Positions 24,728 through 29,392 of a DNA stretch of 64,000 nt are shown here, piece after piece (position 1 is the first letter of the stretch; the number at the start of each line of letters is the position of its first letter). A program made the position numbers and the translations under genes. Source of the stretch: Methanolobus sp. (GTDB taxonomy: Archaea > Halobacteriota > Methanosarcinia > Methanosarcinales > Methanosarcinaceae). The stretch spans positions 1 through 64,000 of the forward strand of contig NZ_JAUXNK010000046.1 of assembly GCF_030682845.1 (NCBI RefSeq), given 5' to 3'. Below the pieces are notes generated by a model. The model saw only the letters and a program-made list of their open reading frames with translations, was not told the origin of the DNA and ran no database searches.

Positions 24728-24838
24728 TCACTCAACATCACCTTTTCTGAAGAGGTACCACTGGAAACCTTTTGCAGTGATCGCCATTACAAGGATAAGC
24801 ATTCCCAGTACCCTATTCAGAAAAAAGGCAGTCCACAC
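24728..24838 (-). pseudogene. C-terminal fragment of a membrane protein formerly paired with the XRE regulator
   Basis: Minus-strand translation [36 protein letters not shown]; no 5' portion. Confidence 0.6.
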
Positions 24839-24846
24839 TTTCTGAG

Positions 24847-24999
24847 ATCACAGGTGGCAGTCCTTACGGGGCCTCAACCATTGCAGGCAGCGGCCCGGAC
24901 ACACGGCTCCCGAGCGAGAATGAGCTGGCGATAGCGCGTTTCCAGGGTAGGCACGTGGCGGAGATCACGAAGAGGCTGGTGGGGGAGTGGCAGCCCTAA
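24847..24999 (+). pseudogene. C-terminal fragment of WrbA-type NAD(P)H:quinone oxidoreductase
   Basis: Translation [50 protein letters not shown]; matches WrbA C-terminus, 5' part absent. Confidence 0.8.
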
Positions 25000-25165: not shown

Positions 25166-28100
25166 ATGATACTAAAAATGAAAGGAACCAGACTTAAGTC
25201 CCAGTTACTTTGCATACTGATATTATTCTCCCTTTTCTCAGGGTGTATAGCTAACCAAAGCGAACTCTCCTCCAACCTCGCCGGTCCGTGCACCGGCCAG
25301 CTTGCAGACGCAGGTGATGAGTTCTTCATACTCGCTCCCAAAGTGCTCTTCTCCGGCGGTGAGAGCTCCATAACCATGGCGGCCTTTGAGAATGGCCAGC
25401 CAGTCAGCCGCTGCATCGAATATACCCTTGTGGATGAGGATAACAATGAGGTCCCGCTTGTCACCGCATCCACCACGGGTGCAGGAAACTCCGTAGCTTC
25501 CTTTGAAGTGCCTGATGTGAAGGAGGGGCGCTATGTGCTCACAGCAAGGCCGGCGGGCTATGAGCGCAATTTCACCGCCACGGTGGAAGTGGTAAGGAAC
25601 AACCCGCTCTTCATCGAAACCGACAAACCTATCTACAAACCGGGACAGGCCATCCACGGCAGGATACTGTCCCTCAACAACAATCTGGTGCCTGTGGAAC
25701 AGGACATCCTGGTCGAGATAACGGATGCAAAGGGCATCAAAGTGTTCAAGGAGGAAATGAGCTCGAACGAATACGGAGTTGCCTCCTTTGACCTGCCCCT
25801 GGCCTCAGAGCTTAACCTGGGCACCTGGAAGATAAAGGCAAGTGCCGGAGATTCAATATCTAATGTGGATGTTCAGGTTGACAAGTATGTGCTTCCGAAG
25901 TTCGATGTCACTGTAACCACTCCGCAGGAATGGTTCCTTGTGTCGGATAAGATTACAGGCACTGTATCCTCTTCATACTTCTTCGGCAAGGATGTGGAAG
26001 GGGAAGTGCTTGTGGAAGCTTCCCGATATGTAGGTGAGTGGGAGCAGTATGCCACATATAATGCAAAGCTCAGCAACGGCTCCGTGGATTTCGAACTTCC
26101 CGCAGTGGGGTATGCTGCGGGCACTTACGGTGCAGGCGGGCAGGCAAGCCTGATGCTCAACGTGACTGTCACGGACACGGGCAACCATAGCGAGATCAGC
26201 AACAAGCTGCTGACCATAGCCGGGTCTCCCCTGTTGCTCCAGATCATTCCCGAATCAGATTACATCAAGCCAGGTATGCCATTGCAGGTGCTTGTGGTGA
26301 CGAAGGACCCTGGAGGAAAGCCGGTGGACACTCAGGTAACCGTTGATATGACTTTCAGGGACGATTCCTATCGCGATACTGCAGACCAGCAAACCGTATC
26401 TACCAAAAACGGTGTTGCGCTCCTTACATACGATGTGCCTGAGTCCGCAATGCAGTGCTATCTCAACGCAGACGCAGACAATGCATATGCATACAAGGAA
26501 TTGAACGCGGTTTATTCCCCAAGTGCAAGTTTCATCCATGTAAGCCAGGTCAGTGACGGTATCCCGGAAGTAGGGGATGTCATCACCTTCAGGGTGTATT
26601 CAACCAATCCGGGAACTGTGTTCTATGATGTGTTCGCTAACGGCAGGACTGTGTATTCAGGAACCAGCAAGGAACAGGATATCAATATACCTGTGACAAT
26701 GCAGATGAGCCCGCAGGCAAAGGTCGTGGCTTACATGATCAACCCCAACAGCGAGGTTTCCGTGGATTTGCTGCCCTTTGACGTGCAGTTCTCTGCACAA
26801 CTGGACCTGAAAAGCTCTTTTGACAGCGAGTCCGTGGAGCCGGGGAAAAACGTGAGCGTTGACTTTGATGCAGGAAGCAGGTCAATGATAGGCTTTTCTA
26901 TCGTTGATGAGTCGGTATATGCACTGAGTGAAGGCAGGCTCAACCTGAAGCAGGTATTTGATGAACTCGAAAAGCGCTTCATGGTACCCCAGGTGGAATC
27001 CCATCCCTACTGGTACCGTGAGGGTGCCTATGAGATGCTGGAAAATGCCGGTGTGACAGTGATGGCATCCCCCGGAATCAGTGTCCCCAAATCTCAGAAC
27101 AGCGCCGGGTGGGAGGCAGGTAATTTTGCAGGTTTTTTTGTTGACATGGATAAAGCCATGGCAGTTGAGATGGAAGCCCCTATGATGGAAGCTCCCATGG
27201 ATGGAGGCATAGTTCTTGATGAAGCTGCTGCAGAAGATACAGGTTCAGGCGCTTCCCTTACTGAAGTCCAAAGGGTGCGCCAGTTCTTCCCCGAGACATG
27301 GGTGTGGATGCCTGACATGCTTACCGATGAGGAAGGACGTGCCAGTATTGAACTGACGGCGCCTGACAGTATCACTACATGGAGAGTGCATGCAGTTTCC
27401 TCGGGTCCTGAAGGCATAGGTATTTCAGAGGCAAAGCTGAGAGTGTTCCAGGACTTCTTCATCGACCCTGACCTGCCGTATTCGGTTATCCGGGGTGAGG
27501 AGTTCCCGGTGCAGATACAGGTCTATAATTACCTTGACAGGGAGCAGAATGTGAGGCTTACTCTCTCGGACGCCGAATGGTTCGATATAGTAGGTGATGA
27601 TGTTCAGGAAGTGACAGTTGAGGCCAACAGTGTCGGTTATGCAAGTTTCACTATCCGGCCCACCGAGGCTGGGAGGAAGATTATCGAGATAACGGGCCAG
27701 ACCACAGAGAAGGCAGATGCTGTCAGGAAGGATATTATCGTTGAGCCCGAAGGTGCCACGAGGGAGCTTGTGGAAAACGGTATCTTCAAGAATGGTTCTG
27801 TGATGCTGGATGTTACTCTTCCTGAAGGAATAGTACCGGATTCAGGAAAGGTGCTCGTGAGCTTCAGTCCGAGCATAGTGGCCCAGACCATCAACGGTGT
27901 TGACAACTTGCTGGGTATGCCCTATGGATGCGGGGAACAGAATATGATGCTCTTTTCCACTGATGTTGAAGTGCTCCGCTACCTTGAGGCCACAGGACAG
28001 GACAACCCCGGACTCAAAGCCAAGGCAGAGATGTACATAGTCACAGGCTACCAGCGGCAGCTGACCTACAGGCACAGTGATGGCTCCTTCTCCGCTTTCG

Positions 28101-29392
28101 GTGAAAGCGACCCTGAAGGCAGTCTCTGGCTGACGGCATTCGTGCTTTCCCAGTTCAGCGGGGCAAGGGACCTTACTACCATCGATGAAGGTATTCTTGC
28201 AGACTCAGATGGCTGGATAGAATCTCATCAGCTGGCCGACGGTTCCTGGGAGCCAGTGGGTTTTGTGATACACCAGGATATGATGGGTGGGGTCAGTGGC
28301 ACCTATGCACTGACAGCCTATGTCACCCTGGCGCTTGATGATTATGGCTCAGCCAATCCGGCAGTGATGGCCGATGCCCGTAAGTATCTAGAGGACAACC
28401 TTGCAGGCCAGAAAGACCCCTATGCTCTTGCCATCGGTACTCTGGCTCTGCAGAAGTTAGACAGCCCGCTTGCGGATAAAGCCCTGAATGACCTGCTCGC
28501 CATCTCAAAACAGGACGACCATGGTACATACTGGGGTTATGGCGATGGACCAGTGTCAATGCCATACCAGCATCGCGGTTATGATTTCATGGTGCCGTCC
28601 AGCAAGAATGTCGAGACCACAGCCTACGCCACCCTTGCTCTGATAGATGCAAGGAACCCGGTAGCCAGTTCTTCACTGAAATGGATATCCGCACAGCGCA
28701 ATTCCAACGGTGGCTTTTCCAGTACCCAGGATACTGTCATGGCCTTCAGGGCCTTAATGAGTGCCGCGACATCAGCAGGCAGGGATGTCGATGCAACGGT
28801 AAAGGTCATTGCAGACAACACTACTGTCAGGTCGATAGATGTGAACTCCCGGAACTTCGATGTAGTGCAGATCGTCGGGATCCCTGAGAATGCTTCACAG
28901 GTCAGGCTCGAAATGGAGGGCACAGGCGAGCTGAGTTACCAGCTGGTGAGGCGTTTCAATGTGATACTGCCGGAAGTCACACCGCAGAAAGAGATCGAAC
29001 TTGATGTGAAGTACGACTCCACAAATGTAGCTGTGAATGATATCGTGAATGTGCAGACCCGTGTGAAGTACAACGGCATACGAGGCATCGACGGCCGGGA
29101 GACATCCAGCGGAATGATGGTCGTTGACATCGCAGTTCCCACAGGCTTCACTCCTGTGACATCAAGCCTCACGGCCCTTAAGGACGAAGGCGTGATAACC
29201 CGCTATGAAGTCGCAGGCCGCAAAGTGATACTCTACATCGATGACATGCAGCCGGGCGAGGAAATAAATTTCAGCATCCGGATGAAGGCATTGTTCCCGG
29301 TGAAGGCTATCGCACAGGAGAGCAGGGCGTATTCGTACTACAACCCGCAGGTGAGTGCAGAGGCAAGTGGGATGGATATGACCGTGGGGTGA
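25166..29392 (+). CDS. Alpha-2-macroglobulin/complement-like thioester lipoprotein
   Basis: 1408 aa; lipobox LFSGC; ETDKPIYKPGQ, YVLPKFDVTV, VRQFFPETWVW, thioester YGCGEQNM (GCGEQ at 27926-27940), thioester-domain helices. Confidence 0.93.
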   Translation: MILKMKGTRLKSQLLCILILFSLFSGCIANQSELSSNLAGPCTGQLADAGDEFFILAPKVLFSGGESSITMAAFENGQPVSRCIEYTLVDEDNNEVPLVTASTTGAGNSVASFEVPDVKEGRYVLTARPAGYERNFTATVEVVRNNPLFIETDKPIYKPGQAIHGRILSLNNNLVPVEQDILVEITDAKGIKVFKEEMSSNEYGVASFDLPLASELNLGTWKIKASAGDSISNVDVQVDKYVLPKFDVTVTTPQEWFLVSDKITGTVSSSYFFGKDVEGEVLVEASRYVGEWEQYATYNAKLSNGSVDFELPAVGYAAGTYGAGGQASLMLNVTVTDTGNHSEISNKLLTIAGSPLLLQIIPESDYIKPGMPLQVLVVTKDPGGKPVDTQVTVDMTFRDDSYRDTADQQTVSTKNGVALLTYDVPESAMQCYLNADADNAYAYKELNAVYSPSASFIHVSQVSDGIPEVGDVITFRVYSTNPGTVFYDVFANGRTVYSGTSKEQDINIPVTMQMSPQAKVVAYMINPNSEVSVDLLPFDVQFSAQLDLKSSFDSESVEPGKNVSVDFDAGSRSMIGFSIVDESVYALSEGRLNLKQVFDELEKRFMVPQVESHPYWYREGAYEMLENAGVTVMASPGISVPKSQNSAGWEAGNFAGFFVDMDKAMAVEMEAPMMEAPMDGGIVLDEAAAEDTGSGASLTEVQRVRQFFPETWVWMPDMLTDEEGRASIELTAPDSITTWRVHAVSSGPEGIGISEAKLRVFQDFFIDPDLPYSVIRGEEFPVQIQVYNYLDREQNVRLTLSDAEWFDIVGDDVQEVTVEANSVGYASFTIRPTEAGRKIIEITGQTTEKADAVRKDIIVEPEGATRELVENGIFKNGSVMLDVTLPEGIVPDSGKVLVSFSPSIVAQTINGVDNLLGMPYGCGEQNMMLFSTDVEVLRYLEATGQDNPGLKAKAEMYIVTGYQRQLTYRHSDGSFSAFGESDPEGSLWLTAFVLSQFSGARDLTTIDEGILADSDGWIESHQLADGSWEPVGFVIHQDMMGGVSGTYALTAYVTLALDDYGSANPAVMADARKYLEDNLAGQKDPYALAIGTLALQKLDSPLADKALNDLLAISKQDDHGTYWGYGDGPVSMPYQHRGYDFMVPSSKNVETTAYATLALIDARNPVASSSLKWISAQRNSNGGFSSTQDTVMAFRALMSAATSAGRDVDATVKVIADNTTVRSIDVNSRNFDVVQIVGIPENASQVRLEMEGTGELSYQLVRRFNVILPEVTPQKEIELDVKYDSTNVAVNDIVNVQTRVKYNGIRGIDGRETSSGMMVVDIAVPTGFTPVTSSLTALKDEGVITRYEVAGRKVILYIDDMQPGEEINFSIRMKALFPVKAIAQESRAYSYYNPQVSAEASGMDMTVG

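Follow-up and report, generated by a model that had tools for sequence, protein, structure and literature searches.

A CD109-like alpha-macroglobulin of animal type in Methanolobus, a predicted protease trap at the archaeal cell surface

We analyzed a window of 64,000 nucleotides from a Methanolobus sp. contig (NZ_JAUXNK010000046.1) and studied the open reading frame (ORF) at 25166-29392 on the forward strand. It is open throughout and codes for a 1408-amino-acid (aa) predicted lipoprotein of the alpha-2-macroglobulin (A2M) family, an animal-type, CD109-like alpha-macroglobulin. An earlier note on this DNA had described a 1408-aa lipoprotein resembling the A2M and complement thioester proteins of animals and had quoted the strings TDKPIYKPGQ, YVLPKFDVTV, FFPETWVW and GCGEQNM; the product contains all four, as well as a lipobox at Cys27. 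Pfam bore out the resemblance: MG2, MG3, MG4, A2M_BRD, A2M (MG7), TED_complement and A2M_recep (MG8) follow each other in the full animal-type order, all above their gathering scores (E-values 2e-9 to 2e-75). The CUB region gave a weak TEP1_CUB2 match (E=0.07), and the segments that flank the thioester domain (TED), aa 810-900 and 1200-1310, are correctly placed. NCBIfam and PADLOC searches returned no match. A domain search of the whole 2.87-Mb, 99.8% complete genome found this as its sole A2M-family gene. The features are as follows.

25166..29392 (+), animal-type (CD109-like) alpha-macroglobulin, 1408 aa, predicted lipoprotein (ORF, Pfam, solved-structure match, Foldseek)
25166..25246 (+), signal sequence with lipobox FSGC, Cys27 being the predicted lipid anchor (pattern in 13/16 orthologues)
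25319..25594 (+), MG1-like beta domain, aa 52-143 (inferred from strands in the model; no Pfam match)
25607..25879 (+), MG2, aa 148-238, which holds TDKPIYKPGQ (Pfam)
25883..26089 (+), MG3, aa 240-308 (Pfam)
25886..25897 (+), YVLP linker between MG2 and MG3, aa 241-244, which roofs the plug channel and is equivalent to A2ML1 Tyr214-Pro217 (motif comparison)
26255..26470 (+), MG4, aa 364-435 (Pfam)
26552..26926 (+), A2M_BRD, aa 463-587 (Pfam)
27101..27256 (+), predicted bait, aa 646-697, a hypervariable Met/Ala/Glu/Gly-rich stretch that the model shows as disordered (orthologue alignment, model)
27278..27292 (+), plug RQFFP, aa 705-709, directly past the bait, equivalent to A2ML1 Arg730-Pro734 (motif comparison)
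27296..27565 (+), A2M/MG7, aa 711-800 (Pfam)
27875..28759 (+), TED, aa 904-1198 (Pfam)
27926..27946 (+), thioester motif GCGEQNM with Cys922 and Gln925 (sequence, alignments)
28271..28273 (+), predicted catalytic His1036 in FVIHQDMMGG (alignment with C3 and CD109; Asn in human A2M)
29105..29362 (+), MG8/A2M_recep, aa 1314-1399 (Pfam)

We compared the protein with solved structures. Its best relative was human A2M (400 bits, E=3e-118, 1270 residues), far beyond chance, and CD109 scored 383 bits; in the same test, E. coli YfhM reached 28 bits against human A2M. A hidden Markov model (HMM) of the archaeal family gave YfhM 26 bits. The domains bMG1, A2M_bMG2, bMG3, bMG5, bMG6 and bMG10, all present in YfhM, had no Pfam match in the 1408-aa protein, and neither did the anaphylatoxin (ANATO) and C345C domains. 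Structure prediction, proposed as a check in the earlier note, placed the closest folds among animal proteins: with an AlphaFold model of aa 45-1205 (pLDDT 79.6, pTM 0.53), Foldseek ranked active CD109 first (E=9e-66), then A2ML1, A2M and TEP1. Native CD109 was also among the top matches, and YfhM came at rank 50. A hydrophobic N-terminus precedes the lipobox, whose pattern recurs in 13 of 16 orthologues; a 14th has GSGC, just outside the pattern. A lipoprotein signal is common to the window protein and YfhM and is not diagnostic of the YfhM type.

The 16 orthologues are Methanosarcinales proteins, 56-85% identical, that were found by domain search, so motif counts among them are not circular. 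Conservation was high except at the N-terminus, in part of MG4 and, above all, at aa 641-697. Mean pairwise identity was 0.30 with 31% gaps at aa 641-680, versus 0.6-0.8 in most blocks, and the whole stretch ranged from 49 to 64 aa in length, keeping only its Met/Glu/Ala/Gly-rich composition. The Met/Ala/Glu-rich segment singled out in the earlier note is real, with 9.2% Met in aa 641-697 versus 2.2% elsewhere (pooled over the orthologues). It is disordered in the model (pLDDT about 30) and directly precedes the RQFFPETW strand, which is the bait position of animal A2Ms. Its variability and low pLDDT are as expected for a bait.

The trigger of A2ML1 requires Tyr214-Pro217 and Arg730/Phe733/Pro734 (PMC9156758). 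The plug-in-channel equivalents Y241, P244, R705, F708 and P709 were present in 60/60 members of a wider homologue set that includes public contig-scan loci picked by GCGEQNM or R[QK][FL]FPETW. Cys922 and Gln925 were likewise found in 60/60 of this set and His1036 in 59/60, and GCGEQ was invariant in the 16 orthologues, which were chosen without the motif. His1036 lies in FVIHQDMMGG, 114 residues past GCGEQNM in the TED, and aligns with the His of C3 (PVIHQEMIGG), CD109 (RVIHSELQGG) and A2ML1 (NLLHTAMKGG); human A2M has Asn. The equivalent His in A2ML1, C3 and C4B forms an acyl-imidazole that reacts with hydroxyls and amines (PMC9156758).

Taken together, the trap anatomy and the lipobox at Cys27 make a membrane-tethered, protease-triggered covalent trap the parsimonious reading. 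We consider it likely that this membrane-anchored, CD109-like and probably monomeric alpha-macroglobulin serves as such a trap on the cell surface; as read from the sequence, the surface trap suggested in the earlier note is still the best functional interpretation, although predators, which the note also named as what it might act against, are a speculative target. A foreign protease would cut the exposed, fast-changing bait loop, and the RQFFP plug behind the cut would be drawn out of the MG2/MG3 channel, which would free the thioester domain to swing. The Cys922-Gln925 thioester, activated by His1036, would then acylate the protease, or a nearby surface, at a hydroxyl or amine, and the captured protease would be fixed and shielded. 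The analysis shows the order of the domains, the motifs, the pattern of conservation, the class of fold, the lipobox and the place in the tree; we infer the thioester chemistry, cleavage trigger, trapping, outward orientation and monomeric state from the anatomy described above.

Human CD109 is the nearest known system: it is the best structural match, is 36% identical in the MG7-TED region, and shares the catalytic His, a lipid membrane anchor and a similar length. CD109 is an animal protein attached to the membrane by a glycosylphosphatidylinositol anchor, whereas the window protein has an N-terminal lipobox. Human A2ML1 and A2M have the same domain order, bait insertion and plug-in-channel residues, and A2ML1 also the His, but both are soluble with unrelated bait sequences, and A2M is a tetramer with Asn at the His position. 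C3 and insect TEP1 share the thioester domain, and the catalytic His motif of C3 is near-identical; the archaeal protein has no ANATO or C345C domain detectable by Pfam. YfhM (ECAM), a type I bacterial A2M, is a lipoprotein with bait and thioester and acts as a protease trap, but it is 1653 aa long, carries extra N-terminal and bacterial-specific MG domains and is encoded beside pbpC. A Methanolobus A2M homologue was already known, WP_015053894.1 of Methanolobus psychrophilus, presumably an orthologue. A 2021 paper (PMC8416519) lists it as near bacterial A2M, with transfer from bacteria as its probable origin; the accessible text of that paper treats it as bacterial-like and does not state its animal-type nature or discuss its architecture, trigger or phylogeny.

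The gene was found in 25/27 genomes of the genus Methanolobus, and this retention argues for a long-held function. All close relatives recovered (up to 87% identity) were Methanolobus. The gene also occurs in Methanococcoides, Methanomethylovorans, ANME-2, Methanoperedens and Altiarchaeales, with a more distant form in Archaeoglobales-like genomes (a group label inferred from neighbouring genes); searches of genomes from several other genera in the Methanolobus family did not find it. A scan of 84,980 species yielded 179 relatives, and the best 80 of these include full-length proteins, 41-48% identical, in Dehalococcoidia/other Chloroflexota, Phycisphaerae/Sedimentisphaerales, Omnitrophota, Hydrogenedentota and Actinobacteria. 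Those bacterial relatives that were checked have the same Pfam architecture. About 13/251 sampled Chloroflexota carried a full-length copy, and Planctomycetota showed a continuum from animal-type to very distant A2Ms. The gene is thus neither archaea-specific nor strain-specific. The earlier note's view of it as a peculiarity of a methanogen is not supported, as almost every Methanolobus and numerous other archaea and bacteria have the protein.

The absence of a PBP1C partner, also remarked on earlier, extends further: there is no PBP1C-like gene in the window and no PF00912 transglycosylase in the whole genome, and PBP1C was absent beside animal-type A2M genes at all loci examined but one. 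At that locus, a Sedimentisphaerales contig (L204:3438-15247; same region in L125), a YfhM-type A2M, a PBP1C with 36% identity to E. coli PbpC and an animal-type A2M are consecutive. In Omnitrophota and a related bacterium (L121, L124, L126, L134, L138), the animal-type A2M has an N-terminal extension of 300-400 aa. The A2M gene of Methanolobus Soudan_28 (L089 / G016:C4:146692-150911) is in two parts, with a break in frame near residue 1086, possibly a pseudogene or an assembly error. An apparent in-frame TGA in the A2M of two other Methanolobus genomes (G026, G006) was rejected, the TGA being the terminal stop codon.

We built trees rooted on bacterial intermediates from several data sets (TED region, full length), which agreed on the main points. 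The animal sequences were vertebrate only: A2M, A2ML1, CD109 and, in one data set, C3, whose thioester-domain sequence is database entry u110249 (275 residues identical to the query seed); TEP1 was not included. The window protein fell with the animals in an animal-type crown clade (100/100 versus the bacterial intermediates). Its own clade of Methanosarcinia and Altiarchaeales (100/99) was sister to Planctomycetota, Omnitrophota and Hydrogenedentota (96/86, full length), and the Archaeoglobales-like archaea grouped with Chloroflexota, apart from it. A single archaeal clade is rejected (approximately unbiased (AU) test, p=1.2e-5), so there were at least two separate acquisitions of the gene by archaea. 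For the Methanosarcinia/Altiarchaeales clade, the Planctomycetota/Omnitrophota group is probably either the donor or a co-holder of the gene, which this clade has probably kept since early Methanosarcinales. The nesting in ordinary bacterial A2Ms that the earlier note had weighed against itself is found in one half only: the protein does nest with Planctomycetota/Omnitrophota, but those proteins are of animal type, not of YfhM/PBP1C type. PMC8416519 is right on bacterial kinship, but the kin are not of the E. coli type, since the protein has none of YfhM's bacterial MG domains.

Animal A2M, A2ML1 and CD109 (and C3 in one data set) formed one clade inside the prokaryotic family, adjoining Chloroflexota/Actinobacteria/Archaeoglobales-like proteins (100/100, full length). 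Forcing the animals outside this family gave AU p=0.246 for the TED region, p=0.063 at full length with one complete animal sequence, and p=0.0038 with the fullest data and three near-complete animal sequences. The trend across data sets is clear, yet the nesting is suggestive and not settled because only vertebrates represent the animals, long branches are involved and the same test was run three times. A grouping of the window clade with animals was rejected (AU p=0.003): bacterial clades lie between the two in the tree, and the window clade is not the closest to animals. Bacterial A2Ms are commonly held to be borrowed from animals and structurally distinct (PMC9156758; Budd 2004 via PMC3328433), and the A2ML1 paper has a CD109-like ancestral animal protein arise within animals and bacterial A2Ms derive from animals (PMC9156758). 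Our tree suggests the opposite direction. We see an even chance that animal A2M, CD109 and complement descend, through a transfer from a prokaryote to an early animal, from a more ancient family of prokaryotic thioester traps that are membrane-anchored, bait-triggered and His-catalysed and whose present-day carriers are Chloroflexota, Planctomycetota and relatives, as well as several archaea, Methanolobus among them. If this is true, the complete complement-type mechanism predates animals. A literature search that left out most subscription papers and preprints found no paper describing an animal-type prokaryotic A2M clade.

A conserved operon partner was rejected, as neighbours within 7 kb change freely among relatives. 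An upstream flavodoxin/WrbA-like gene, genes of ArsR/ArsP type and mutS recur, and none of them has a functional link to A2M. The flavodoxin/WrbA-like gene is intact upstream of A2M in 11 relatives; in the window it is degraded to a leftover of its last 60 codons (24808-24987, forward strand, 88% identical).

Several points weigh against a surface trap. Confidence in the fold model is moderate, motif counts from the 60-homologue set are partly circular because the scan picked loci by two of these motifs, and the genes beside A2M offer no functional clue. Our literature search found no biochemistry on any member of the window protein's clade, and it is less obvious for a lipid-anchored protein than for the human tetramer how a large protease would be shielded. 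A large, lipid-anchored protein with repeat-like MG domains could instead be a thioester adhesin or envelope cross-linker that binds the cell to its neighbours, to surfaces or to the S-layer of the cell itself, with the variable segment a mere linker. ANME-2 and many carriers live in anaerobic consortia or biofilms, a lifestyle that would suit such a role. However, the complete conservation of the trigger parts (YVLP, RxFFP plug) would then be unneeded, and the bait position of A2M is where the bait-like variability lies; we regard an adhesin as quite improbable. A complement-like tagger, whose cleavage-exposed, His-catalysed thioester of C3 type would tag sugars on invading cells, viruses or the cell's own S-layer without inhibiting proteases, would fit the His motif, nearly that of C3, and the reactivity of His-type thioesters with hydroxyls too (PMC9156758). 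It nevertheless appears unlikely: the anaphylatoxin and C345C domains were not found by Pfam, the stretch to be cleaved is a long, hypervariable bait and not a fixed convertase site, downstream effector genes are absent nearby, and A2ML1, a proven inhibitor, has the same His.

The score of 400 bits to human A2M might also mean that the gene was captured from an animal or that the assembly is contaminated with animal DNA. The protein is, however, vertically conserved in genus and order (56-87% identity) with recognisable neighbourhoods, bacterial clades separate its clade from animals, and both a grouping of its clade with animals and, on the fullest data, animals outside the prokaryotic family were rejected, so we hold this origin to be very improbable. 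Uptake of an ordinary YfhM-type A2M from bacteria could account for the lipoprotein signal and for the placement among bacterial A2M homologues in PMC8416519. It is already contradicted by the domain content, as well as by the missing PBP1C and PF00912 and the low score of YfhM with the family HMM, and we give it almost no weight.

Among the Planctomycetota, 20 distant A2M cousins (L226-L229, L247-L262) have TGA, in frame, precisely in place of the thioester Cys codon, in the motif PGG/PYG/PHG-TGA-[FM]EQ and with long open frames on either side. A strong tRNA-Sec (67-81 bits) was found in 9/12 TGA-carrying genomes tested versus 3/8 comparison genomes. Just 3' of the TGA, at the position of a bacterial selenocysteine insertion sequence, lies a covarying hairpin: 71% of cells pair versus 36-49% when slid, and both sides changed in 7/10 pairs (in the alignment, the last codon of a few rows, outside the helix, was mis-entered). 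These sequences predict that the cousins carry selenocysteine, with a selenoester replacing the thioester. Our literature search found no paper linking selenocysteine with macroglobulins, and a selenoester A2M is apparently undescribed.

As the earlier note had proposed, the family is indeed relevant to how animal A2M and complement arose, with the animals' nesting suggestive. A prokaryotic family with the complete animal layout, the trigger, a C3-type His and animals inside it makes that origin directly testable, and the culturable Methanolobus and Methanococcoides offer simple models for a CD109-like membrane trap. The presence of the gene suggests that anaerobic archaea meet enough extracellular proteolysis to retain a 1400-aa trap. 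Since the animal proteins appear to branch inside an archaeal and bacterial family, this part of animal immunity may be of microbial origin.

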